Below are positions 24,721-49,646 of a stretch of DNA of 49,695 nucleotides, one piece after another; position 1 is the stretch's first letter, and each line of letters starts with the position of its first letter. The stretch spans positions 1 through 49,695 of the forward strand of contig NZ_JAOPXI010000104.1 in the NCBI RefSeq assembly GCF_025965215.1, in the 5' to 3' direction. The notes beneath the pieces are model-generated. The model was given only the letters and a program-made list of their open reading frames with translations, searched no databases and was not told the origin of the DNA. The position numbers were made by a program, and so were the translations under genes. Origin of the DNA: Marmoricola sp. (lineage in GTDB: Bacteria; Actinomycetota; Actinomycetes; Propionibacteriales; Nocardioidaceae).

Positions 24721-25721
24721 AGGTCGCAGTCACCGGCGCCGCCGGCTTCCTCGGCCTGAACCTGCTCACGGCGCTGCTCGCCGACGGCCACGACGTCCTG
24801 GCGCTGGACACGGCGCGTCCGCCGATGCCGGCCGGCCAGCACGGGGCGGGCACCTTGCGTTGGGGTGCTGTCGACATCCTCGACGAGACCGCGGTGACGC
24901 GGGCTCTGGCCGACATCGAGGTCGTCCACCACCTGGTGGCGGTGATCAGCCTGCGCCAGGAGGATCCGGTGGCGGAGAAGGTCAACGTGCACGGCGTCGG
25001 CGCGGTCGCGCGAGCCTCGCTGGCAGCCGGCGTCCGGCGGATGGTGAACTGCGGCTCGCTCGCCTCCTTCGACTACGAGAAGGGCGCGACCGTTGACGAA
25101 GGCTCAGCCCGCTCGACCGATCCGGCTCTGCCGGTCTACCACCGCTCCAAGTACGGCGGCGAGGTCGAGCTCCTCAAGGTCATCGACGCCGGGCTCGACG
25201 CGGTCATCTGCAACCCGACCGGCATCTACGGACCCCTCGACCACCCGGACAGGCTGTCCCGGATGAACCAGAGCCTGCTCGAGGCCGCCCTGGGCAAGCT
25301 CGCGGCAAGCGTCTCCGGCGAGTTCGACATGGTCGACGCCCGCGACGTCGCAGCCGGCTTCGTGCTGGCCGCCGAGAAGGGCCGGACCGGTCACAACTAC
25401 CTGATCGGCGGCCACCGCCACGACTTGTTCGACGCTCAGGTGCGCGCAGCCGAGCTCGCGGGCCGCAGGGGCCCGCGGATCAGGATCCCGATGCGCGTCC
25501 TGGAGGCCGTCGCACCACTGGTGGACCCGGTGGCGCGACGCTTCGGTTCGGACTCGTTCGCCCCCGCGGCACTGGAGAACATCTCGATGAGTCCGGTCGT
25601 CGACCGCACCAAGGCGGGAGCCGAGCTCGGTTACCAGCCACGTGCGACCGAGGAGACCCTCCGCGACCTGGTGGCGTTCTTCGCCGCGTCCGGGCTGCTG
25701 GGACAGGCTGCGGTGTCCTGA
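24717..25721 (+). CDS. NAD-dependent epimerase/dehydratase family (3-beta-HSD-like extended SDR)
   Basis: 334 aa; ATG overlaps the ligase stop as ATGA. The N-terminal TGAAGFLG nucleotide motif, HHLVAVISL, SLASFDYEK and the YHRSK (Tyr-x3-Lys) active site define an extended SDR. The body resembles 3-beta-hydroxysteroid dehydrogenase and dihydroflavonol reductase subfamilies more than sugar epimerases. In this catabolic operon, oxidation of a hydroxyl on the CoA-activated or ring substrate is the likely step; the substrate is not identified. Confidence 0.88.
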   Translation: MKVAVTGAAGFLGLNLLTALLADGHDVLALDTARPPMPAGQHGAGTLRWGAVDILDETAVTRALADIEVVHHLVAVISLRQEDPVAEKVNVHGVGAVARASLAAGVRRMVNCGSLASFDYEKGATVDEGSARSTDPALPVYHRSKYGGEVELLKVIDAGLDAVICNPTGIYGPLDHPDRLSRMNQSLLEAALGKLAASVSGEFDMVDARDVAAGFVLAAEKGRTGHNYLIGGHRHDLFDAQVRAAELAGRRGPRIRIPMRVLEAVAPLVDPVARRFGSDSFAPAALENISMSPVVDRTKAGAELGYQPRATEETLRDLVAFFAASGLLGQAAVS

Positions 25722-26737
25722 TGCTGCTCGACGTCCAGCTCGACGCCCGCCCGGACCAGGCGGCCGAGCGGGCGCGACACCTGGTCGCTGCCGGGGTCGA
25801 CGGACTCTTCACGTTCGAGGGACCGCACGACGTCTTCCTACCGTTGATCGTGGCCGCGAACACGGTCGAGACCGACCTGATGACCAACGTTGCGATCGCG
25901 CTGCCGCGCAGTCCGATGCACCTGGCCAACATGGCCTACGACCTGCACCTGCTGTCGGCGGGCAGGTTCCGGCTCGGCCTCGGCTCGCAGATCAAGCCGC
26001 ACATCGAGAAGCGGTACGGCGGCGTCTGGAGCAAGCCGGCGGCCCGGATGCGTGAAACGGTGCTGGCGACCAAGGCGATCCTGACCTCGTGGCAGGACGG
26101 CACCAGGCTGGACTTCCGTGGTGAGTTCACCCAGCACACGCTGATGCCGCCGACTTTCGTCCCCGGCCCCAACCCGTACGGCGTCCCGCCGGTCCTGCTC
26201 GGCGCCCTCGGACCGATCATGACCCGCACCGCTGCCGAGGTCGCCGACGGACTGCTGGTGATGCCGTTCAACAGCGCGCGGCACTTCCGCGAACGCACGC
26301 TGCCCGCCGTGGCCGAAGGGCTCGAACTGGCCGGCCGGCCCGCTCTCGACGCCGGCGGGTTCGACCTCTACCCGCAGGCGATCGTCGCGATGGGCACGAC
26401 GCCGGCCGAGATCGAGGCGGCCAGTGCCGGCGTACGGGGCCTGCTCGCGTTCTACGGGTCGACGCCGGCGTACGTGCCCGTCCTGGAGATCGAGGGCTGG
26501 GGCGACCTGCAGCCCCAGCTCAACGCGCTGTCCAAGACCGGCGACATCACCTCGATGATCGACCTGGTCGACGACGACATGCTGCGGACGCTCGCCGTCG
26601 TCGGCACCCCGTCCGAGTGCGCCGCCGAGATCAAGGACCGCTTCGGCGATGTAGCGGACCGCATCTGTGCCTACTTCCCGGGTTCTGACCACTCGGCCAC
26701 CACGATCCGGGAGCTGGCCGAGTCACTGAAGCGCTAG
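25721..26737 (+). CDS. LLM-class F420-dependent oxidoreductase (TIGR03617-like)
   Basis: 338 aa; the ATG shares a base with the previous stop (TGATG). The luciferase-like TIM barrel is recognisable by LFTFEGPHDVFLPL, IALPRSPMHLANMAYDL, GRFRLGLGSQIKPHIEKRYG and APFx-like PPVLLGALGPIMTRTAAEVADG. The family uses F420 (or FMN) to move hydride on alcohols, enones or aldehydes. It ends the six-gene operon and overlaps the convergent cyclase stop by 4 bp. With the DDN-like gene it makes this locus F420-rich. Confidence 0.9.
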   Translation: MLLDVQLDARPDQAAERARHLVAAGVDGLFTFEGPHDVFLPLIVAANTVETDLMTNVAIALPRSPMHLANMAYDLHLLSAGRFRLGLGSQIKPHIEKRYGGVWSKPAARMRETVLATKAILTSWQDGTRLDFRGEFTQHTLMPPTFVPGPNPYGVPPVLLGALGPIMTRTAAEVADGLLVMPFNSARHFRERTLPAVAEGLELAGRPALDAGGFDLYPQAIVAMGTTPAEIEAASAGVRGLLAFYGSTPAYVPVLEIEGWGDLQPQLNALSKTGDITSMIDLVDDDMLRTLAVVGTPSECAAEIKDRFGDVADRICAYFPGSDHSATTIRELAESLKR

Positions 26738-36374: not shown

Positions 36375-37163
36375 ATGACGAACCCGCCAGCGGCGACGGC
36401 CGGGCTGCTCGACCTCCTGGACCTGGAGATGCTCGAGGAGAACACCTACCAGGCGTTCCACGTCTTCGACGAGGACTGGCCCCTGTACGGCGGTCAGGTC
36501 GCCGCCCAGGCGCTGCTCGCCGCCGGGCTGACCGTCGAGCCCAGCCGTCATCCGCACTCCCTGCACGGCTACTTCCTGCGCGCCGGCGACGCGTCCCGCC
36601 CGACGATGTTCAAGGTCGACCGGGACCGCGACGGCCGGTCGTTCTCGGCCCGGCGGGTGGTGGCCATCCAGCGCGGCGAGGTGATCTTCTCCGCAGCGGT
36701 CTCGTTCGCCGCACCGGCCGACGGGATGGAGCGGCAGGCCCTCGAGCTGCCCGACGTGACCGGGCCGGCAGAGAGCCTGGCCTGGGTCGTCCCGCGGATG
36801 TTCTCACTCGAGGTGAGGATCCCGCCCGAGGACGGGATCACAGCCTGGCCGGCACGCTTCTGGTCCCGGTTCACCACCGGCATCGGTGACGACGTGCTGC
36901 TCAACGCCGCGGCCCTGACCTATCTCTCGGACGTGTCCGCGGACCTGCACAGCTTCCACACCGACGGCTTCATCCCGGCCGCCAGCCTCGATCACGCGGT
37001 CTGGTTCCACCACCCGGTCCGGATGGAGGACTGGGTGTTCACCGACCACACCGCACGCGCGATCGCCGGGAACCGGGGGCTCTACACCGGCTCTGTCTTC
37101 GACCGCTCGGGTCGTATGGTCGCGAGCATCGCGCAGGAGGCGCTGTACCGGAAGTTCAGCTGA
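36375..37163 (+). CDS. tesB: Acyl-CoA thioesterase II (TesB-like)
   Basis: 262 aa from ATG 36375. Double hot-dog protein: YGGQVAAQALLAAGLTV and LHGYFLRAGD in the first half; RRVVAIQRGEVIFSAAVSF; SLDHAVWFHHPVRMEDW and RGLYTGSVFDRSGRMVAS in the second half. The latter carries the Asp/Thr/Gln-type active site of TesB. It hydrolyses acyl-CoA to free acid and CoA. The 145-bp divergent gap to the MFS gene holds its promoter, but no distinct motif was seen. It is convergent with npdG (8-bp overlap). Confidence 0.92.
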   Translation: MTNPPAATAGLLDLLDLEMLEENTYQAFHVFDEDWPLYGGQVAAQALLAAGLTVEPSRHPHSLHGYFLRAGDASRPTMFKVDRDRDGRSFSARRVVAIQRGEVIFSAAVSFAAPADGMERQALELPDVTGPAESLAWVVPRMFSLEVRIPPEDGITAWPARFWSRFTTGIGDDVLLNAAALTYLSDVSADLHSFHTDGFIPAASLDHAVWFHHPVRMEDWVFTDHTARAIAGNRGLYTGSVFDRSGRMVASIAQEALYRKFS

Positions 37164-37842
37164 GGTCCGTGACGCGGATCCCGGCATGCGCCTTGTAGCG
37201 ACGGTTGATGCTGATCAGGTTGGCGGTCATCGCCTCGACCTGGTGGGCGTTGCGGATCCGGCCGCCGTACACGCCGCGGACACCCGGGATCGTGTCGGCC
37301 AGCGCCTGGACCAGGTCGGTGGCGGAGCGGTCGTCGCCCAGCACCAGCACGTCGGTGCCGAGATCGGTGACCTCGGGGTCCTCGAGCAGCACCGCGCTGA
37401 CGTTGTGGAAGGCGCCCACCACCGTGCTGTCGGTCAGGATCGCCGCTGCCTGCTGGGTCGCGGAACCCTCGGCGACCGCCAGCGCGTAGGCACCCTGCTT
37501 GTCGAAGCCGAGCGGGTTCACGCAGTCCACGACGACCTTGCCGTCGAGCACGGGCTTCAGGTCGGCCAGCAGCTCGCCGTGGCCTTCCCAGGGCACGACC
37601 ACCAGCACGACGTCGCCGGCCTCGCTGGCGCCGCGGTTGTCGGAGCCGGCGACCGGCACACCGATCGCGTCGCTGAGCTCGGCGGCGGCGGCGGCTCCCT
37701 TCTCCGCGGTCCGGCTGCCGAGCACGACGCTCAGGCCGGCCTGGGCGAAGCGTCGGGCCAGACCGCGCCCCTGCGGACCGGTGCCGCCCAGGACGGCGAT
37801 GGTCAACGCAGCGAGGTCAGGGGCAGCAGCATCAGAAGTCAC
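37156..37842 (-). CDS. npdG: F420:NADPH oxidoreductase (NpdG/Fno)
   Basis: 228 aa from GTG 37842. The Rossmann motif VLGGTGPQGRGLARRFA, LGSRTAEKG for NADP phosphate recognition, VVPWEGHGELLADL and the C-terminal GGRIRNAHQVEAMTANLISINRRYKAH are diagnostic of TIGR01915. The enzyme exchanges hydride between NADPH and coenzyme F420. In actinobacteria it can supply F420H2 for reductases. It is divergent (88 bp) from a pyrimidine catabolic operon with an LLM oxidoreductase, so it may feed that enzyme and the two other F420-type enzymes in the window. Confidence 0.94.
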   Translation of the reverse strand: MTSDAAAPDLAALTIAVLGGTGPQGRGLARRFAQAGLSVVLGSRTAEKGAAAAAELSDAIGVPVAGSDNRGASEAGDVVLVVVPWEGHGELLADLKPVLDGKVVVDCVNPLGFDKQGAYALAVAEGSATQQAAAILTDSTVVGAFHNVSAVLLEDPEVTDLGTDVLVLGDDRSATDLVQALADTIPGVRGVYGGRIRNAHQVEAMTANLISINRRYKAHAGIRVTDLS

Positions 37843-37891
37843 GCCCGTAGGTTACGGCCCCTTGACCGCACGGCGTTCACGGGGAGACTGG

Positions 37892-37915
37892 ATAACTCAC
37901 ACACGTGTTCACACC
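37892..37915. promoter_or_regulatory. Quasi-palindrome around ACACGTGT between npdG and the pyrimidine operon
   Basis: ACACGTGT (37901-37908) is a perfect palindrome extended on both sides to TCACACACGTGTTCACA with two mismatched pairs. It lies in the 88-bp divergent gap, 22 bp upstream of the ribosome site of the amidohydrolase, so it could co-regulate both directions. No regulator gene is adjacent. Confidence 0.45.
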
Positions 37916-37930
37916 CGGGGAGGGACCCAC

Positions 37931-38779
37931 ATGACCATCGTGCGCGCGGCGATCTCGCAGACCACCTGGACCGGCGACAAGGAGTCGATGCTCGATCGGC
38001 ACGAGCAGTTCGCCCGCGACGCCGGCGCCCAGGGCGCACAGGTCATCTGTTTCCAGGAACTGTTCTACGGGCCCTACTTCGGGATCACCCAGGACAAGAA
38101 GTACTACGCGTACGCCGAACCCGCCGACGGCCCGATCGTGCAGCGCTTCGCCGCGCTGGCCGCCGCGCTCGGGATGGTGATGATCCTGCCGATCTACGAG
38201 GAGCAGCAGACAGGCGTCTACTACAACACCGCCGTGGTGGTCGATGCGGACGGCACGATCCTCGGCAAGTACCGGAAGCACCACATCCCGCACGTCGAGA
38301 AGTTCTGGGAGAAGTTCTACTTCCGCCCGGGCAACCTCGGCTACCCCGTCTTCGACACCGCGGTCGGCAAGATCGGCGTCTACATCTGCTACGACCGACA
38401 CTTCCCCGAGGGGTGGCGCGAGCTCGGCCTCGCCGGCGCGCACATGGTCTTCAACCCGAACGCGACCAAGCCCGGGCTGTCCAACCGGCTCTGGGAGATC
38501 GAGCAGCCCGCCGCCGCGGTCGCAAACGGGTACTTCGTCCTCGCACCGAACCGGGTCGGCCTCGAGGACAACGAGTACGGCGACGAGGCCGTGAACTTCT
38601 ACGGCACCAGCCAGGTCGTCGACCCCCGCGGCAACTACGTCGGCGAGCTCGGCAGTGGCGACAAGGAGGAGCTGCTCGTGCGCGACCTGGACCTCGACCT
38701 GGTGCGCCAGATGCGCGACGACTGGCAGTTCTACCGCGATCGTCGCCCGGACTCCTACACGCAGATCGCGCAGCCGTGA
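37931..38779 (+). CDS. Beta-ureidopropionase-like nitrilase-superfamily amidohydrolase
   Basis: 282 aa from ATG 37931 with GGAGGG at ideal spacing. The catalytic triad is Glu43 (FQELFYGPYF), Lys116 (YRKHHIP) and Cys153 (ICYDRHFPE). The EKFYFRPGNLGYPVFDT stretch is typical of beta-ureidopropionase/N-carbamoyl amidohydrolases. The reaction is N-carbamoyl-beta-alanine to beta-alanine + CO2 + NH3, step three of reductive pyrimidine breakdown; step two is encoded by the next gene, which shares a TGATG junction. Confidence 0.92.
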   Translation: MTIVRAAISQTTWTGDKESMLDRHEQFARDAGAQGAQVICFQELFYGPYFGITQDKKYYAYAEPADGPIVQRFAALAAALGMVMILPIYEEQQTGVYYNTAVVVDADGTILGKYRKHHIPHVEKFWEKFYFRPGNLGYPVFDTAVGKIGVYICYDRHFPEGWRELGLAGAHMVFNPNATKPGLSNRLWEIEQPAAAVANGYFVLAPNRVGLEDNEYGDEAVNFYGTSQVVDPRGNYVGELGSGDKEELLVRDLDLDLVRQMRDDWQFYRDRRPDSYTQIAQP

Positions 38780-40209
38780 TGGTCACCCTGATCAAGAACG
38801 GCACGGTGGTCAACGCCACCGGCAGCCACCCGGCTGATGTGCTCACCGACGGCGAGAAGATCGTCGCGCTGCTCTCCCCCGGCTCCACGGCGCTCGGGCA
38901 GATCAACGCCGACACGGTGATCGATGCCACCGGCAAGTACGTGATCCCCGGCGGGGTCGACGCCCACACCCACATGGAGCTGCCGTTCGGCGGCACCAAC
39001 GCCTCGGACACGTTCGAGACGGGCACCCGCGCCGCCGCCTGGGGCGGTACGACGAGCATCATCGACTTCGCCGTCCAGCGGACCGGCGAACGGGTCGAGG
39101 ACGGCCTCGCTGCCTGGCACGCCAAGGCGGACGGCAACTGCGCGATCGACTACGGCTTCCACCAGATCATCGGCGGCGTCGACGAGTTCTCGCTGAAGTC
39201 GATGGAGACGCTCGAGGCCGAGGGCATCACCAGCTACAAGCTCTTCATGGCCTACCCGGGCGTCTTCTACAGCGACGACGCGCAGATCCTCAAGGCGATG
39301 CAGAAGGCCGCCGGGCTCGGTCTGCTCACGATGATGCACGCCGAGAACGGCCCGGCGATCGATGTCCTCGCCGAGCAGCTGGTCAGCGCAGGCAAGACCG
39401 ACCCGTACTTCCACGGCATCGCCCGCGCCTGGCAGATGGAGGAGGAAGCCACGCATCGCGCGATCATGCTGGCCAACCTCACCGGGGCGCCCCTGTACGT
39501 CGTGCACGTGTCGGCGAAGCAGGCCGTCGAGCAGCTCGCCTGGGCCCGCGACAAGGGCCAGAACGTCTTCGGCGAGACCTGCCCGCAGTACCTCTACCTC
39601 TCCCTGGAGGAGCAGCTCGGCGCGAGCAGTCCTGCGTTCGGGAGGTTCGAGGGCGCCAAGTGGGTGTGCTCGACGCCGCTGCGCTCGCGTGCCGAAGGGC
39701 ACCAGGACTCGATGTGGCAGGCGCTGCGCACCAACGACCTGCAGATGGTCTCGACCGACCACTGCCCGTTCTGCATGAAGGACCAGAAGGAGCTCGGTGT
39801 CGGTGACTTCCGGGCGATTCCCAACGGCATCGGCTCGATCGAGCACCGGATGGACCTGATGTACCAAGGGGTCGTGACCGGCGAGATCTCCCTCGAACGC
39901 TGGGTCGAGCTGACCTCGACCACCCCGGCGCGGATGTTCGGCCTGTACGGCACCAAGGGCGTGATCGCGCCCGGCGCCGATGCCGACATCGTCGTGTACG
40001 ACCCGAACGGGCACACCAGCATCGGGGTCGGCGAGGGCCGGACCCACCACATGAACATGGACCATTCGGCCTGGGAGGGCTTCGAGATCGACGGCCACGC
40101 CGACGTCGTGGTGTCGCGGGGGTCCGTGCTCGTCGAGAACGGTACCTATTCCGGTCGGCCGGGTCATGGCAAGTACCTGAAGCGCGGCCTCAGCCAGTAC
40201 CTGATCTGA
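38779..40209 (+). CDS. hydA: Dihydropyrimidinase (D-hydantoinase)
   Basis: 476 aa. Zinc ligands His63 and His65 (GGVDAHTHMEL), carboxylated bridging Lys154 (SYKLFMAYPG, with Tyr159 for substrate), further His residues in MMHAENG and VVHVSA, and the base Asp in STDHCPF. Length and motifs fit dihydropyrimidinase. It opens dihydrouracil or dihydrothymine to the N-carbamoyl amino acid. It is translationally coupled to the ureidopropionase gene. A dispersed repeat follows its stop. Confidence 0.95.
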   Translation: MVTLIKNGTVVNATGSHPADVLTDGEKIVALLSPGSTALGQINADTVIDATGKYVIPGGVDAHTHMELPFGGTNASDTFETGTRAAAWGGTTSIIDFAVQRTGERVEDGLAAWHAKADGNCAIDYGFHQIIGGVDEFSLKSMETLEAEGITSYKLFMAYPGVFYSDDAQILKAMQKAAGLGLLTMMHAENGPAIDVLAEQLVSAGKTDPYFHGIARAWQMEEEATHRAIMLANLTGAPLYVVHVSAKQAVEQLAWARDKGQNVFGETCPQYLYLSLEEQLGASSPAFGRFEGAKWVCSTPLRSRAEGHQDSMWQALRTNDLQMVSTDHCPFCMKDQKELGVGDFRAIPNGIGSIEHRMDLMYQGVVTGEISLERWVELTSTTPARMFGLYGTKGVIAPGADADIVVYDPNGHTSIGVGEGRTHHMNMDHSAWEGFEIDGHADVVVSRGSVLVENGTYSGRPGHGKYLKRGLSQYLI

Positions 40210-40211
40210 GC

Positions 40212-40251
40212 TTTCGAGACGGTTGCCGCGCAACCTCCTCAACCAACGGAG
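40212..40251 (+). repeat. REP-like element with small hairpin between hydA and the LLM gene
   Basis: TTTCGAGACGG... CTCCTCAACCAACGG with the central perfect hairpin GGTTGC-CGC-GCAACC (40221-40235). TTTCGAGACG and CTCCTCAACCA-type ends are common in dispersed repeats of Nocardioides-like genomes. It fills most of the 57-bp gap and could stabilise or attenuate the operon transcript. Confidence 0.6.
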
Positions 40252-40266
40252 AACGAGAGGGAGCAC

Positions 40267-41283
40267 GTGGATTTCGGCGTCGTACTGCAGACCAACCCGC
40301 CCGCGTGGCGCACCGTTGCGCTCGCCAAGCAGGCCGAGGAGCACGGCTTCGACTACGTCTGGACCTTCGACTCGCACCTGCTCTGGCAGGAGCCGTACGT
40401 CATCTACTCAGCGATCCTGGCCGAGACCCACCGGGTGATCGTCGGGCCAATGGTGACCAACCCGGCCACCCGGGACTGGACCGTGACCGCGTCGGTCTTC
40501 GCCACCCTCAATGAGATGTACGGCAACCGCACGGTGGTCGGGATCGGACGCGGCGACTCGGCCGTCCGCGTGCTCAACGGCAAGCCGACGACGCTGCAGG
40601 AGGTCCGTGACGCCACCCACGTGATCCGCGAGCTGGCCAACTGCCGGCCCGTCGAGGTCAACGGCACCACGTTGCAGTTCCCGTGGGCGACGACCTCGGA
40701 GGTCGAGGTGTGGGTGGCGGCGTACGGACCGCTCGCGCTCAAGACCGCCGGTGAGGTCGGGGACGGCTTCATCCTGCAGCTCGCCGACGTCGACATCGCG
40801 ACGTGGATGATCGCCCAGGTGCGAGACGCCGCCGAGAAGGCGGGTCGCGATCCGGACGCGTTGACGTTCTGCGTCGCAGCGCCGGCCTACGTCGGCACTG
40901 ACCTCGCGCACATGCGCGAGCAGTGCCGCTGGTTCGGCGGCATGGTCGGCAACCACGTCGCTGACATCGTCGAGAAGTATGGAACCGACACCGAGTTCCC
41001 CCAGGTCCTGACCGACTACATCAAGGGCCGCCAGGACTACGACTACAACGAGCACGGCCGGCCCGGGAACACGCACACCGGGTTCGTGCCGGATGAGATC
41101 GTGGACCGGTTCTGCATCCTGGGCACACCCGAGCAGCACATCGCCAAGCTCGCCGAACTGAAGGCGATCGGGGTGGACCAGTTCGCGATCTACCTGCAGC
41201 ACGACAACAAGGAGGAGACCTTGCGCCAGTACGGCGAGACCATCATCGGGGCCCTTCGCGACCACGTGACGGCGAAGGCATGA
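40267..41283 (+). CDS. LLM-class F420-dependent oxidoreductase (TIGR03842-like) in the pyrimidine operon
   Basis: 338 aa from GTG 40267 with GAGAGGGAG upstream. MDFGVVLQTNPPAW, FDYVWTFDSHLLWQEPYVIY, VVGIGRGDSAVRVLNGKP and AAYGPLALKTAGEVGDGFILQ define a luciferase-like F420 enzyme closest to TIGR03842. It is coupled (ATGA) to the aminotransferase. No preA/preT-type dihydropyrimidine dehydrogenase is nearby, so this enzyme is a candidate for the missing first step (pyrimidine reduction) or an alternative redox step. That assignment is inference. RutA, which opens uracil rings, is another LLM-class protein, but it is a monooxygenase of a different branch. Confidence 0.92.
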   Translation: MDFGVVLQTNPPAWRTVALAKQAEEHGFDYVWTFDSHLLWQEPYVIYSAILAETHRVIVGPMVTNPATRDWTVTASVFATLNEMYGNRTVVGIGRGDSAVRVLNGKPTTLQEVRDATHVIRELANCRPVEVNGTTLQFPWATTSEVEVWVAAYGPLALKTAGEVGDGFILQLADVDIATWMIAQVRDAAEKAGRDPDALTFCVAAPAYVGTDLAHMREQCRWFGGMVGNHVADIVEKYGTDTEFPQVLTDYIKGRQDYDYNEHGRPGNTHTGFVPDEIVDRFCILGTPEQHIAKLAELKAIGVDQFAIYLQHDNKEETLRQYGETIIGALRDHVTAKA

Positions 41284-42599
41284 GCGCCGAATCGAACGAG
41301 GGGGGCGACGCCCGCGCCGCCGAGCTGGACCGCGCGCACGTCTTCCACTCCTGGTCGGCCCAGGGGGCTCTCCAACCGTTCGTGATCGCCGGCGGCGAGG
41401 GGTGCACGGTCTGGGACCACGCCGGACATCGGTACCTGGACTTCTCCAGCCAGCTCGTCAACCTCAACATCGGGCACCAGCACCCCAAGGTCGTCGCGGC
41501 GATCCAGGAACAGGCCGCGACCCTTGCGACGATCGCACCGGCCACGGCCAACCTCGCTCGCGGCGAGGCAGCCAAGCGGATCACCGACCGCGCGCCGGAG
41601 GCGTTCCGCAAGGTGTTCTTCACCAACGGCGGGGCCGATGCCAACGAGAACGCGATCCGGATGGCGCGGTTGCACACCGGGCGCGACAAGGTGCTCTCGA
41701 CGTACCGCTCCTACCACGGCAACACCGGCGCCGCCGTCGTCGCGACCGGGGACTGGCGCCGCGTCCCGAACGAGTTCGCCCGCGGCCACGTGCACTTCTT
41801 CGGACCGTACCTGTACCGCACCGAGTTCTGGGCGACGTCGCCCGAGCAGGAGGCCGAACGCGCGTTGACGCACCTGCGCCGGGTCATCGAGGCCGAAGGA
41901 CCGGCCAGCGTCGCGGCCATCCTGCTCGAGACAATCCCCGGCACTGCGGGCGTGCTGCTGCCGCCGCCCGGTTACCTGGCCGGCGTACGGGAGCTCGCGA
42001 GCAGGTACGGCATCGTGCTGATCCTGGACGAGGTGATGGCCGGGTTCGGCCGTACGGGCGAGTGGTTCGCGTTCGACGCCTACGACGTGGTGCCCGACCT
42101 GATCACCTTCGCCAAGGGCGTGAACTCCGGGTACGTGCCGACTGGCGGCGTGATCATCAGCGACGACATCGCCGCCGACTTCGACGACACCGTGTTTCCT
42201 GGCGGGCTCACCTACTCCGGCCACCCGCTCGCGATGGCATCGATCGTGGCCACCCTGGACGCGATGGCCGACGAGGGCATCGTCGAGAACGCCGCGACGA
42301 TCGGCCGCGAGCACCTGGAGCCGGCTCTGCGGAAGCTCGCCGAGAAGCACGACATCATCGGCGAGGTCCGGGGCACCGGGGTCTTCTGGGCGCTCGAGCT
42401 GGTCACGGACCGCGAGACCCGGGCACCCGTCCCGGCGGCGGTGATGGGGCGGGTGAAGAGTGAGCTGCTGGCGCGTGGTGTGCTTCCGTTCATCGTCGAG
42501 AATCGCATCCATGTGGTGCCGCCGTGCATCGTCACCCCGGACGAGGTCGCCGAGGCGCTCACGGCGTACGACGAGGTGCTCGGGCTCGAGCTGACGTGA
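41280..42599 (+). CDS. Class III (omega) aminotransferase, beta-alanine:pyruvate type
   Basis: 439 aa, ATGA overlap with the LLM gene. PLP-binding Lys279 lies in ITFAKGVNSGY; other motifs are FFTNGGADANENAIRMAR, YRSYHGNTGA, LDEVMAGFGRTGEWFAFD and GLTYSGHPLAMAS. The family moves the amino group of beta-alanine or 3-aminoisobutyrate to pyruvate or 2-oxoglutarate, giving malonate or methylmalonate semialdehyde, which the next gene's product would oxidise. This fits the end of reductive pyrimidine breakdown. Confidence 0.93.
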   Translation: MSAESNEGGDARAAELDRAHVFHSWSAQGALQPFVIAGGEGCTVWDHAGHRYLDFSSQLVNLNIGHQHPKVVAAIQEQAATLATIAPATANLARGEAAKRITDRAPEAFRKVFFTNGGADANENAIRMARLHTGRDKVLSTYRSYHGNTGAAVVATGDWRRVPNEFARGHVHFFGPYLYRTEFWATSPEQEAERALTHLRRVIEAEGPASVAAILLETIPGTAGVLLPPPGYLAGVRELASRYGIVLILDEVMAGFGRTGEWFAFDAYDVVPDLITFAKGVNSGYVPTGGVIISDDIAADFDDTVFPGGLTYSGHPLAMASIVATLDAMADEGIVENAATIGREHLEPALRKLAEKHDIIGEVRGTGVFWALELVTDRETRAPVPAAVMGRVKSELLARGVLPFIVENRIHVVPPCIVTPDEVAEALTAYDEVLGLELT

Positions 42600-42611
42600 G
42601 AGGGAACCTAG

Positions 42612-44105
42612 ATGACTGACGTACTTGACCACTGGATCGACGGCGGCACCGCCGCGGGCACGTCGCCCCGCACCGGAGACGTCTTCGACCCGGCTCGCGG
42701 TGTCGTGACCAAGCAGGTCCGGCTGGGTTCGGCGGCCGACGTCGACGCGGCCGTGGCTTCGGCATCGAAGGCGTTCACCGACTGGGGGCAGGCCTCGATC
42801 GCCCGGCGCCAGGGAGTGATGTTCGCGTTCCGCGAGCTGCTCAACGCCCGCAAGGGCGAGCTCGCCGAGATACTCACCGCCGAGCATGGCAAGGTGCTCT
42901 CCGACGCGGCCGGGGAGATCGCGCGCGGCCTTGAGGTCGTCGAGTTCGCGTGCGGGTTGCCGCACCTGCTCAAGGGAGCGATGAGCGACCAGGTCTCCCA
43001 GGACGTCGACGTCTACACGCTCAAGCAGCCACTCGGCGTGGTCGGCGTGATCACCCCATTCAACTTCCCGGCAATGGTGCCGCTGTGGTTCTTCCCGATC
43101 GCGATCGCTACCGGGAACACGGTCGTCCTCAAGCCGAGCGAGAAGGACCCGTCGGCGGCCAACTGGATGGCGGCGCTGATGGCCGAGGCCGGGCTGCCCG
43201 CCGGTGTCCTCAACGTGGTGCACGGCGACAAGGAGGCGGTCGATGCCCTGCTGGAGCATCCCGATGTCGCCTCGATCTCCTTCGTCGGATCGACGCCGAT
43301 CGCGCGCTACATCTACGAGACCGGCACCGCCCACGGGAAGCGGGTACAGGCCCTGGGCGGTGCGAAGAACCACATGCTCGTGCTGCCCGACGCCGATCTC
43401 GACCTGGTGGCGGACTCGGCGGTGAACGCCGGGTTCGGCTCAGCCGGCGAGCGCTGCATGGCGATCAGCGTCGTCCTGGCCGTCGACAGCGTCGCCGACA
43501 CCCTGGTCACGAAGATCAGTGACCGGATGGCCACGCTCACGACCGGCGACGGTCGCCGCGCGTGCGACATGGGTCCGCTGATCACCCGCGAGCACCGCGA
43601 CAAGGTCGCCGCGTATGTCGACCTGGCGACCGAGGACGGCGCCACTGTGGTCGTCGACGGCCGTGACCCTCAGGTCGACGGGGAGCCGGACGGCTTCTGG
43701 CTGGGACCGACCCTCATCGACCACGTGCCGACCACGTCGCGGGTCTACACCGACGAGATCTTCGGCCCGGTGCTGTCGGTGGTACGGATCACCGGATACA
43801 CCGAGGGGCTCGGCATCATCAACGCCGGCCCGTACGGCAACGGCACCGCGATCTTCACCAACGACGGCGGCGCGGCCCGTCGCTTCCAGCGCGAGGTCGA
43901 GGTCGGCATGGTCGGGGTCAACGTCCCGATCCCGGTGCCGGTGGCGTATCACTCGTTCGGTGGCTGGAAGGCCTCACTCTTCGGCGACGCCAAGGCCTAC
44001 GGTCCGCACGGGGTCGACTTCTTCACCCGCGAGAAGGCAGTCACGGCCCGCTGGCTCGACCCGAGCCATGGTGGCCTGAACCTGGGGTTCCCGCAGCACG
44101 ACTGA
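42612..44105 (+). CDS. mmsA: CoA-acylating (methyl)malonate-semialdehyde dehydrogenase
   Basis: 497 aa. Catalytic Cys282 (GSAGERCMAIS); the position normally holding the general-base Glu is Asn253 (LGGAKNHMLV), the hallmark of CoA-acylating MMSDH. ITPFNFPAMVPLWFFP and GSTPIARYIY are also typical. It converts malonate semialdehyde (from beta-alanine) to acetyl-CoA, or methylmalonate semialdehyde (from thymine via 3-aminoisobutyrate) to propionyl-CoA. It is the last gene of the operon, 12 bp after the aminotransferase. Confidence 0.95.
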   Translation: MTDVLDHWIDGGTAAGTSPRTGDVFDPARGVVTKQVRLGSAADVDAAVASASKAFTDWGQASIARRQGVMFAFRELLNARKGELAEILTAEHGKVLSDAAGEIARGLEVVEFACGLPHLLKGAMSDQVSQDVDVYTLKQPLGVVGVITPFNFPAMVPLWFFPIAIATGNTVVLKPSEKDPSAANWMAALMAEAGLPAGVLNVVHGDKEAVDALLEHPDVASISFVGSTPIARYIYETGTAHGKRVQALGGAKNHMLVLPDADLDLVADSAVNAGFGSAGERCMAISVVLAVDSVADTLVTKISDRMATLTTGDGRRACDMGPLITREHRDKVAAYVDLATEDGATVVVDGRDPQVDGEPDGFWLGPTLIDHVPTTSRVYTDEIFGPVLSVVRITGYTEGLGIINAGPYGNGTAIFTNDGGAARRFQREVEVGMVGVNVPIPVPVAYHSFGGWKASLFGDAKAYGPHGVDFFTREKAVTARWLDPSHGGLNLGFPQHD

Positions 44106-44141
44106 GGCAACCCGGTGGCCCGACCCTCCGGTCACCCGCCC

Positions 44142-44251
44142 CTCCGGTCACCCGCCTCTCCTGCCGCCTGCCCTCCGGTCACCCGACCCGCCGACCCTCC
44201 GGTCACCCGACCCTCCTGCCGCCTGCCCTCCGGTCATCCGACCCTCCGGTC
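44142..44251 (+). repeat. Two imperfect 55-bp tandem units built on CTCCGGTCACCCG
   Basis: Copies of CTCCGGTCA(C/T)CCG start at 44126, 44142, 44173, 44197 and 44228, with a sixth partial copy at 44244. The 44142-44196 and 44197-44251 blocks match with a 55-bp offset, including CCTGCCGCCTGCCCTCCGGT in both. The last copy runs directly into the dispersed repeat. Confidence 0.8.
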
Positions 44252-47813: not shown

Positions 47814-48388
47814 GCCAGGTCGCCTGCAGCCTCCAGACCGCGGGTGATGAGGTCTCCCAGCGCCGCGTACGCCGCCGCGTCACCGAGCCCCGTCGCTGCT
47901 TCGATCCGACCCTCCGCGATCGCTGACATCACCACGGCGACGGCAGCGCCGACGAACCGCGCGTCGACCGGACGCAGGGCTTGCGAGGCGACACCCGACG
48001 TCACGATGTCCTGGACCCGCTGGGCGGCCCGCTCGGTGTTCTCGACGTAGATCGCGCGCGCCGGCGGGTAGTCGGCGAGATCGGCGTAGAACTTCTCCGA
48101 CGCCGGGGCGAGCTCCTCTGCGACGGCGGCGAGGGAGACGGCCAGCCGTCGTCCGGGGTCGGGTTCGGCTGCGACCCGGGCCTCGATCCGGTCCTCGGCA
48201 CGACGGAAGTACCGTCGTACCGCAGTGACCACGATCTGCTCCTTGCTGGACGCCACCAGGTACAGGCTGGATCGTGAGCACCGCAGCCGAGCCGCGAGGT
48301 CGCCCATCCCGAAGGCAAGGAAACCCTCGGCCAGGTAGAGCTCGACCAGTGCTTCGAGAAGTTGTTCGCCACGGGCTTCGGGGGCCAT
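47807..48388 (-). CDS. TetR/AcrR family regulator
   Basis: 193 aa from ATG 48388. HTH FLAFGMGDLAARLRCSRSSLYLVASSKEQ (about residues 22-50), followed by a C-terminal ligand domain with FYADLADYPPARAIYVENT. It is divergent (88 bp) from the acyl-CoA dehydrogenase gene, whose promoter carries a partial palindrome at 48401-48428, the likely operator. It overlaps the broken GH6 gene by 7 bp at the 3' end. An acyl-CoA ligand is inferred from context. Confidence 0.88.
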   Translation of the reverse strand: MAPEARGEQLLEALVELYLAEGFLAFGMGDLAARLRCSRSSLYLVASSKEQIVVTAVRRYFRRAEDRIEARVAAEPDPGRRLAVSLAAVAEELAPASEKFYADLADYPPARAIYVENTERAAQRVQDIVTSGVASQALRPVDARFVGAAVAVVMSAIAEGRIEAATGLGDAAAYAALGDLITRGLEAAGDLAQ

Positions 48389-48400
48389 GATTGAGGATAC

Positions 48401-48428
48401 CAGAACCGATACTGTAGTACTAGGTCTG
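48401..48428. promoter_or_regulatory. Imperfect 28-bp palindrome between TetR and acyl-CoA dehydrogenase genes
   Basis: CAGA.C...TACT..AGTA...G.TCTG, 18 of 28 positions symmetrical, centred in the divergent region 13 bp from the TetR start. It is a candidate operator for the adjacent TetR protein. Confidence 0.45.
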
Positions 48429-48476
48429 TTACTCACGGCGTTGGCAAGCACGCCGACCGCAAGCTGGAAGGTTCCG

Positions 48477-49646
48477 ATGACTGCACGACGCGTCCTGCCC
48501 ACCGACGAGGCCACCGACCTGCTCAGGCTGGTCCGGGACCTGGCCACTCGCGAGCTGCTGCCCCTGGCCGCGACCGCCGAGCGCAACCAGGCCTTCCCTC
48601 GGGAGACCTTCCGCCTGCTCGGACGCACCGGTCTGCTCGGACTCCCCTACCCGGAGGAGTACGGCGGAAGCGGGTTGCCCTACGAGGTCTACCTCCAGGT
48701 GCTCGAAGAGATCGGCTCGGTCTGGTCGAGCGTCGGCGTGGGCGTCAGCGTGCACGCGCTCTCCTGCTTCGGCCTCGCGACGGTGGGCACCGAGGAGCAG
48801 AAGCGGTCCTGGCTCCCGGACATGCTCGGCGGCGACCTCCTCGGCGGCTACTGCCTCTCCGAGGCCCACGCCGGGTCCGATCCGGCTGCGATGCGGACCA
48901 CCGCCCGTCGCGAGGGCGATGAGTACGTCCTGAACGGCGCCAAGGCATGGACGACCCACGGCGGGCAGGCGGACTTCTACAAGGTGATGGCCCGGACGTC
49001 GACCGAGCGCAACGGGATCTCGTGCTTCCTGGTCCCGGCCGACACCCCCGGCCTGAGCGCCGATGCTCCCGAGGACAAGATGGGTCTGACCGGCTCGACC
49101 ACCGCGACGATGCTGTTCGACAACGTCCGGATCCCGGTCGAGCGCCGGCTGGGTGAGGAGGGCGACGGCCTCAAGATCGCGCTGGCCGGCCTGGACTCCG
49201 GTCGCCTCGGCATCGCGGCCGTGGCCGTCGGCCTGGCCCAGGGCGCGCTCGACAACGCAGTCGCCTACGCCAAGGAGCGGGAGACCTTCGGCAAGCGGAT
49301 CATCGACCACCAGGGACTGGCCTTCGTCCTCGCCGACGCCGAGGCGGCGATCGCTTCGGCACGTGCGACGACCCTGCACGCGGCCCGGCTCAAAGACGCC
49401 GGACTGCCCTTCAGTCGCGAGGCGTCGATCGCCAAACTGGTCGCCACCGACAACGCGATGAAGGTGACCACCGACGCCGTCCAGGTCCTCGGTGGCTACG
49501 GCTACACCAGGGACTTCCCGGTCGAGCGCTACATGCGCGAGGCCAAGGTCATGCAGATCTTCGAGGGAACCAACCAGATCCAGCGGATGGTCATCAGCCG
49601 CGGGCTCGAGAACGACAACCACGGCACGATCACGCGGAGGCCGTAG
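48477..49646 (+). CDS. Acyl-CoA dehydrogenase (short/medium/branched chain type)
   Basis: 389 aa from ATG 48477 (GGAAGG six bases upstream). GLPYPEEYGGSGLPY, the FAD/substrate motif GYCLSEAHAGSDPAAM, NGAKAWTTHGG, ERETFGKRIIDHQGL, VQVLGGYGYTRDFPVERYMREAK and the catalytic Glu363 in QIFEGTNQIQRM are intact. It introduces the alpha,beta double bond in acyl-CoA using FAD and electron-transfer flavoprotein. It is divergent from, and probably controlled by, the neighbouring TetR. The window ends 49 bp downstream without another recognisable feature. Confidence 0.95.
   Translation: MTARRVLPTDEATDLLRLVRDLATRELLPLAATAERNQAFPRETFRLLGRTGLLGLPYPEEYGGSGLPYEVYLQVLEEIGSVWSSVGVGVSVHALSCFGLATVGTEEQKRSWLPDMLGGDLLGGYCLSEAHAGSDPAAMRTTARREGDEYVLNGAKAWTTHGGQADFYKVMARTSTERNGISCFLVPADTPGLSADAPEDKMGLTGSTTATMLFDNVRIPVERRLGEEGDGLKIALAGLDSGRLGIAAVAVGLAQGALDNAVAYAKERETFGKRIIDHQGLAFVLADAEAAIASARATTLHAARLKDAGLPFSREASIAKLVATDNAMKVTTDAVQVLGGYGYTRDFPVERYMREAKVMQIFEGTNQIQRMVISRGLENDNHGTITRRP

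Follow-up and report, generated by a model that had tools for sequence, protein, structure and literature searches.

A Marmoricola operon in which a Mer-like, F420-linked oxidoreductase probably opens reductive pyrimidine degradation

We have analysed a 49,695-nucleotide (nt) stretch of Marmoricola sp. DNA (assembly GCF_025965215.1, contig NZ_JAOPXI010000104.1, positions 1 to 49,695 of the forward strand), referred to below as the window, which carries at positions 37931-44105 of its plus strand a rightward operon of five genes. The host genome (G000) consists of 206 contigs totalling 3.6 Mb, with a completeness of 94.76%. The operon contains genes of the reductive pyrimidine degradation (Pyd) pathway and, in third place, a gene for an LLM-class oxidoreductase of family TIGR03842 (hereafter LLM). 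We consider it probable, the substrate being suggested by gene context, that this protein is an F420H2-dependent enzyme, unrelated to dihydropyrimidine dehydrogenase (DPD), that reduces uracil or thymine and thereby opens the pathway. An npdG gene diverges from the operon. A sequence-only reading of the window had named the gene families of the operon and an F420:NADPH oxidoreductase gene 88 bp away; the open reading frames (ORFs) and the profile scores, listed here with the profile cut-offs where one applies, agree with it on both.

37156-37842, minus strand: npdG, NADPH-dependent F420 reductase (Fno); TIGR01915, 224.3 bits (cut-off 149.8)
37843-37930, no strand: divergent intergenic region of 88 bp, with an imperfect palindrome and the sequence ACACGTGT
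37931-38779, plus strand: ureidopropionase-like amidohydrolase of the nitrilase superfamily (PydC role); PF00795, 216.9 bits
38779-40209, plus strand: dihydropyrimidinase/D-hydantoinase (PydB role); TIGR02033, 526.6 bits (cut-off 393.25)
40267-41283, plus strand: TIGR03842 LLM-class oxidoreductase with a GTG start; TIGR03842, 587.6 bits (cut-off 295.45)
41280-42599, plus strand: class-III aminotransferase, presumed beta-alanine aminotransferase (PydD role); PRK06062, 750 bits (cut-off 472)
42612-44105, plus strand: CoA-acylating (methyl)malonate-semialdehyde dehydrogenase (MMSDH); TIGR01722, 688 bits (cut-off 448.5)

The ureidopropionase and dihydropyrimidinase ORFs share one base. An ATGA overlap, by which the LLM gene had been said to be coupled to its operon, does exist, but at its junction with the aminotransferase gene; a gap of 57 nt separates it from the dihydropyrimidinase gene. 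The LLM protein aligns to TIGR03842 (F420_CPS_4043) over the full profile, positions 1-329 of 329. Against the PDB, the dihydropyrimidinase scores 456 bits with D-hydantoinase, and its nearest solved structures carry that name. The ureidopropionase-type CN_hydrolase was over no cut-off in the NCBIfam profile scan. Its PDB relatives include 2vhh, 8pt4 and 6ftq, the best solved ones being 2vhh ('CG3027-PA', 189.5 bits), N-carbamoylputrescine amidohydrolase (183) and beta-ureidopropionase (170), and from these similarities we infer that the product is a beta-ureidopropionase. The profile of the aminotransferase carries only the name 'hypothetical protein', and its closest solved relative is taurine:2-oxoglutarate aminotransferase (362.8 bits), so that beta-alanine as its substrate is only presumed. 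Strings that we take to be the active-site motifs of these families were found in the operon enzymes, the dihydropyrimidinase among them. The presence of a dihydropyrimidinase and a ureidopropionase-group CN_hydrolase in one cluster places the locus within the Pyd pathway.

The association of LLM with this pathway was examined in a phylum sample of 246 genomes, in which TIGR03842 was over its cut-off in 53; the Fisher tests of co-occurrence are uncorrected for phylogeny. Dihydropyrimidinase (TIGR02033) was over cut-off in 50 of the 53 LLM-positive genomes, compared with 25 of the 193 LLM-negative ones (Fisher 1.5e-29). At the level of the locus, we used 53 sample loci (L039-L091; one per LLM-positive genome, two for G130 and none for G000, which is the window itself), many of which end at contig ends. 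Dihydropyrimidinase was observed in 38 of them, ureidopropionase in 29, an NCS1 permease in 25 and an M20 carbamoylase in 19, and 50 of the 53 had at least one of these four. Among the best 80 of 581 confirmed loci from named species, dihydropyrimidinase was present in 79, ureidopropionase in 78, the aminotransferase in 60 and MMSDH in 33; the closest of these 80 is L093, from a Marmoricola sp. metagenome-assembled genome (G246), whose LLM is 96% identical to that of the window. Many of the named-species loci come from related families, chiefly Microbacteriaceae, as would be expected if the association were a frozen Actinomycetota neighbourhood without functional meaning. We give that explanation almost no credence, since LLM is constant while gene order, transporter (NCS1 or NMT1-type ABC) and carbamoylase family vary across lineages, including several family codes of the sample and the Alphaproteobacteria.

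A second clade of TIGR03842 proteins was noted in loci L082-L090, scoring 425-456 bits and approximately 46-52% identical to the window protein; ureidopropionase, aminotransferase or dihydropyrimidinase is present there, in an order unlike that of the window. A phage collection gave one 23% LLM match, which we judged irrelevant, and a 134-base piece of the LLM gene had no match in an E. coli collection.

As a specificity control we examined the 25 sample genomes that have dihydropyrimidinase but not LLM over cut-off, at 26 loci (L176-L201), several of them shortened by contig ends. One, from G208 (L176), has adjacent dihydropyrimidinase, M20, PreA and PreT genes, a full alternative and the sample's sole PreA-dihydropyrimidinase cluster. 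In L177 the dihydropyrimidinase is accompanied by an AT2-like gene and a homologue of cofD, L201 has a weak ureidopropionase match (32%), and L184 breaks off near its dihydropyrimidinase (62% identity). In the other 22 control loci no ureidopropionase, M20, NCS1, aminotransferase, MMSDH or PreTA was found, and three of these (L178, L196, L198) contain distant LLM-type matches of 23-26%. Identity of the dihydropyrimidinase itself does not split the two groups, as the LLM-positive sample loci reach down to 41%.

The window lacks a dihydropyrimidine dehydrogenase, as the sequence-only reading had pointed out, and the observation extends to the whole host genome, in which the best match to PreA (NF006183) was 37 bits against a cut-off of 335. 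PreA was over cut-off in none of 99 LLM-bearing genomes (0 of 53 in the sample and 0 of 47 in a second set, made up of G000, common to both, and 46 genomes from which named-species loci were taken), and the 2 of 246 sample genomes in which it was over cut-off, G208 and G191, both lack an LLM over cut-off. Likewise, tblastn queries with E. coli PreT and PreA (L092) gave no match in the 53 sample loci and the 80 named-species loci; the same queries recover PreTA in G208 (L176) and PreA in G191 (L202), so the test is able to show a positive. LLM itself is not of the DPD type, for it carries PF00296 alone, without a DHODH-type FMN domain or 4Fe-4S clusters. The reading had also called for a search for rut genes. 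By genome profile search RutA did not pass its cut-off in the host, and it did so in 2 of 47 LLM-positive genomes.

Comparisons of the LLM protein with solved structures place it near F420 enzymes. A family profile built from 23 TIGR03842 members scored highest with Mer, the F420-dependent methylenetetrahydromethanopterin reductase (180.6 bits). Next came F420-dependent hydroxymycolic acid dehydrogenase, Adf and Fgd, and no FMN luciferase scored above 55 bits. An AlphaFold2 model of LLM (pLDDT 90.1) gave Mer-F420 as its best Foldseek match (E 3.6e-23, 27% identity), and ranks 1-15 were all F420 enzymes (Mer, Adf, FGD2 and FGD1). The protein is therefore grouped, as a PF00296 TIM-barrel nearest to F420 enzymes, with the F420-dependent luciferase-like hydride transferases. 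In the alignment, LLM and Mer have in common a GPxVTNP stretch, which in Mer sits at the deazaflavin, and a GxGD motif, and residues in the C-terminal third of LLM are invariant and specific to the family. Examples of family-invariant positions in the window protein are W40, R95, D97, Y153, R221, W222 and H230. Judged by this resemblance and by the gene associations described below, LLM almost certainly uses F420. For F420 as the bound cofactor, for the substrate and for the direction of the reaction, we infer the assignments given here.

The sequence-only reading would have fallen if F420 biosynthesis genes were absent from the host, and they are present. We looked for FbiC, CofD, CofE and NpdG, and found FbiC (contig C184), CofD (C161, 380 bits) with an adjoining CofE homologue (L203), and NpdG. 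Judged by its genes, then, the host has F420. Of the 53 LLM-positive genomes of the phylum sample, 49 have cofD over cut-off, compared with 84 of 193 LLM-negative ones (Fisher 1.7e-11), and a cof gene lies within approximately 10 kb of LLM in 36 of the 80 named-species loci (cofD in 32, cofE in 8, cofG in 4 and cofH in 4). In the sample genome G225, cofD is approximately 12 kb from LLM.

Physical linkage is stronger evidence than co-occurrence, and it was seen also in Alphaproteobacteria, whose loci come from plasmid records. Plasmids of Leisingera caerulea (L174) and L. aquaemixtae (L238) carry an operon of the order cofG-cofH-cofD-cofC-cofE-npdG-LLM, with a divergent cluster of pntAB, an aminotransferase, a Zn-dependent hydrolase, dihydropyrimidinase and an NCS1 permease. 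A third Leisingera record (L204; 3 of the 10 records found were examined) is cut by the record start and shows cofC, npdG and LLM. A plasmid of Paracoccus alcaliphilus (L173) has the same cof-npdG-LLM operon. In the stretch L173:14001-27491 this operon is followed by genes for an ABC transporter, for adenosylcobinamide amidohydrolase and for formate dehydrogenase.

The earlier suggestion that family members occur in bacteria not known to make F420 fits some isolates, but most of these appear to have another source. In a second count, of 47 LLM-bearing genomes or records (the E. coli yardstick L092 being left out), cofD was over cut-off in 38. Of the 9 that lack it, 7 have a putative F420-0 ABC transporter, TIGR03868, over its cut-off; they are two Salinibacterium, three Arthrobacter, Glaciibacter superstes and a Demequina. 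The same model was over cut-off in 15 of the 34 genomes searched, 8 of these 15 being cofD-positive. In L098, L114 and L124 the LLM operon has genes for the putative importer in its vicinity, as it has a CofE homologue in L098, L100 and L124. As the transporter models are 'hypothetical equivalogs' of NCBI, F420-0 import is a prediction.

Several further observations concern F420 salvage. In Arthrobacter and Demequina loci (L098:2482-4505, L100:2373-4083 and L124:1283-2952), an LLM gene is followed by the cofE homologue, with importer genes nearby in L098 and L124. The LLM gene beside cofE in L098 and L100 passes the cut-off of TIGR03557 (F420, Fgd-like); TIGR03885, FMN-dependent by name, scores higher on it but below its own cut-off. 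These LLM-cofE clusters are candidates for self-contained sets for F420 salvage and recharging. Leifsonia flava (G255, L102) has cofD and the putative importer over cut-off and no FbiC/CofH match, and may salvage FO or F420-0 and complete it locally. In L093/G246 a second FbiC and a second NpdG lie approximately 5 kb apart (G246:C6:102768-109145), and in G000 partial FbiC-type matches adjoin an LLM gene (C176:428-2673); perhaps both genomes have a second F420 gene set.

The most direct challenge to F420 is that LLM could be an FMN-dependent monooxygenase of the RutA type, to which F420 would be irrelevant. RutA also belongs to the PF00296 superfamily and also acts in pyrimidine degradation, and cofD is missing in some LLM-positive isolates. 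Yet LLM matches no RutA model (TIGR03612 is absent from its 25 NCBIfam matches), its top solved relatives are F420 enzymes, and complete cof operons are co-encoded with it on plasmids. RutA, moreover, opens the ring in an FMN- and O2-dependent reaction without a dihydropyrimidinase step, and its product, unsaturated and open, would be no substrate for the dihydropyrimidinase that accompanies LLM. We regard this possibility as very improbable. The preference of the sequence-only reading for F420 over FMN is supported by cofD co-occurrence, cof linkage, the importer, and a profile and fold nearest to Mer.

In the aggregate, these observations are best explained by the following scheme, in which the operon would encode a complete reductive Pyd pathway with a Mer-like LLM in place of the iron-sulfur flavoprotein dihydropyrimidine dehydrogenase. 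FbiC, CofD and the CofE homologue would make F420, which NpdG would reduce with NADPH in this genome. LLM would then reduce the C5=C6 bond of uracil or thymine, with F420H2 as the source of the hydride. Such a reaction is chemically reasonable, because F420H2 has a low potential and is known to donate hydride to activated C=C bonds. Ring opening by dihydropyrimidinase and trimming by ureidopropionase would give beta-alanine or beta-aminoisobutyrate, from which the aminotransferase would form malonate or methylmalonate semialdehyde, and MMSDH would convert these to acetyl-CoA or propionyl-CoA.

Two other placements of LLM have to be weighed against this scheme. In one, LLM would use F420H2 to reduce an intermediate formed further along the pathway, most probably malonate or methylmalonate semialdehyde (the PydE role), with an unrecognised enzyme elsewhere reducing uracil. 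Alcohols and hemiacetals are substrates of related LLM enzymes, the solved relatives include Adf and Fgd, and MMSDH was not found in 47 of the 80 named-species LLM loci. We nonetheless disfavour this placement, and consider it rather improbable, because in the window MMSDH stands in the same operon, where (as in the 33 loci that have it) one of the two enzymes would be redundant, and because LLM is tied more closely to dihydropyrimidinase and ureidopropionase than to the aminotransferase. PreA, furthermore, is over cut-off nowhere in the LLM-bearing genomes, nor RutA in the host.

In the other placement, LLM would reduce a different heterocycle, such as a substituted pyrimidine, a hydantoin or a purine-derived ring, and the operon would not serve uracil or thymine. 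D-hydantoinases accept several rings, and the closest solved structures to the operon's dihydropyrimidinase bear that name. The linked NMT1-type transporter has no ligand assigned. An F420-dependent PF00296 'yanthine reductase' has also been proposed, in 2025, for uric-acid clusters of Chloroflexota (PMC12507026). On the other hand, ureidopropionase, class-III aminotransferase and MMSDH suit dihydrouracil and dihydrothymine, and many other loci have NCS1-type permeases in place of the NMT1-type transporter. We therefore consider a different ring unlikely, and favour reduction of uracil or thymine.

Some of our results weigh against that proposal. PreA was below cut-off also in 24 of the 25 dihydropyrimidinase-positive, LLM-negative genomes, so its absence is by itself a weak argument. 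No cof gene was found in any of the 53 sample loci; set against the 36 of 80 named-species loci, this indicates that linkage depends on the lineage, whereas co-occurrence holds generally. The Paracoccus plasmid gave no dihydropyrimidinase match above 80 bits in the 400,000 of its 402,633 bases that were searched. As to the genomes that lack cofD over cut-off, the two of the 47 without the importer are G247, which has FbiC, and G278, in which no F420 source was found. Among the sample LLM-positives the corresponding genomes are G195 (cofD in pieces, FbiC present), G173 (FbiC present), G119, with a partial FbiC match only, and G160, which is 81% complete and gave no F420 source. Finally, regeneration of F420 from NADPH by NpdG, as the sequence-only reading had it, fits the host genome, in which the npdG of the window is the sole NpdG over cut-off by genome profile search, but of 49 genomes or records only 8 have an NpdG over cut-off (the host, a Marmoricola relative, three Nocardioides, Microlunatus and two plasmids). 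The electron donor to F420 accordingly differs among lineages, and those without NpdG presumably have another F420 recharger, perhaps an Fgd-like enzyme.

The features of the region between npdG and the operon likewise do not generalise. The quasi-palindrome said to be shared by the two divergent genes is present at 37858-37884, with 10 of 12 pairs matching, but of the 78 relatives whose upstream stretch could be used, L093, from the same species, is alone in having a copy of the 27-nt palindromic word, the runner-up having 9 mismatches. Similarly, ACACGTGT occurs upstream of ureidopropionase in 1 of the 78 relatives, again L093, and NpdG adjoins the operon in 1 of the 80 named-species loci, also L093. 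We therefore rejected divergent npdG and the palindrome as general evidence for the proposal. A shorter word was more widespread: TGTTCA occurs within 160 bp upstream of ureidopropionase in 27 of the 78 relatives, against a mean of 1.0 after shuffling, and ATGTTCA in 25, against 0.3. The window copy of TGTTCA is at 37905-37910, at -25; in L094-L097 the word lies 50-73 bp before ureidopropionase and 26 bp past a TTGAC. It is a candidate regulator site for the operon.

Other features of the window were noted in passing. A degenerate tandem array at 44112-44251, directly 3' of MMSDH, has periods of 16, 31 and 55 and a unit of approximately CCCGACCCTCCGGTCA. An acyl-CoA dehydrogenase gene at 48387-49646 (plus strand), whose top NCBIfam match is acryloyl-CoA reductase (386 bits, under the cut-off of 640), is adjoined by a TetR-type regulator on the opposite strand. 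A second LLM protein is encoded at 25721-26737 (plus strand; TIGR03617, 438 bits), and its start overlaps a preceding NAD-epimerase-type gene.

The proposed pathway can be compared with systems already described. Pyd pathways that begin with PydA have the same dihydropyrimidinase, ureidopropionase, aminotransferase and semialdehyde dehydrogenase steps, leading from uracil to beta-alanine. They differ in the first enzyme, which here is a PF00296 protein without a DHODH-type FMN domain and without iron-sulfur clusters, and for which F420H2 is the proposed reductant. Two forms of PydA are described, one using NAD(P)H (PreTA/DPYD) and one using ferredoxin (PydAc), and the accessible part of the 2020 paper on them mentions neither F420 nor luciferase (PMC7332683). 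With Mer (1Z69, 8QPL), LLM has in common the fold, the two motifs and a presumed direct hydride transfer from F420H2; it differs in that the substrate of Mer is a C1 unit on a pterin, in its 27% identity, and in the invariant C-terminal residues of its own family. The nearest precedent for the idea is the proposed yanthine reductase, as there too a PF00296 protein would take the place of an FMN/Fe-S enzyme where a ring is opened reductively; that pathway degrades urate, in another phylum, and the proposal is based on gene neighbourhoods only (PMC12507026). In open-licence literature, of which coverage was partial, we found neither an account of uracil reduction with F420 nor any mention of TIGR03842. 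These comparisons suggest that a Pyd pathway opened by an F420-dependent enzyme without homology to PydA would be new.

If the proposal is correct, a widespread family annotated as a 'hypothetical equivalog', over cut-off in 53 of the 246 sample genomes, would gain a function, and the proposal would add a third kind of first enzyme to the reductive pyrimidine pathway, beside the NAD(P)H and ferredoxin types. A 2021 review of F420 leaves open why Proteobacteria make this cofactor, and the words 'uracil' and 'dihydropyrimidine' do not occur in its accessible text (PMC8498797); for some lineages, pyrimidine reduction would be an answer. We lean, with less assurance than for the reaction itself, towards the wider view that TIGR03842 is a new dihydropyrimidine-forming class and that several lineages (Rhodobacterales plasmids, Microbacteriaceae, Arthrobacter and Demequina) may retain F420 synthesis or F420-0 import largely for the recycling of pyrimidine nitrogen. 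Pyrimidine catabolism of many Actinomycetota would then be F420-dependent, and some bacteria without F420 synthesis would import a precursor for it.

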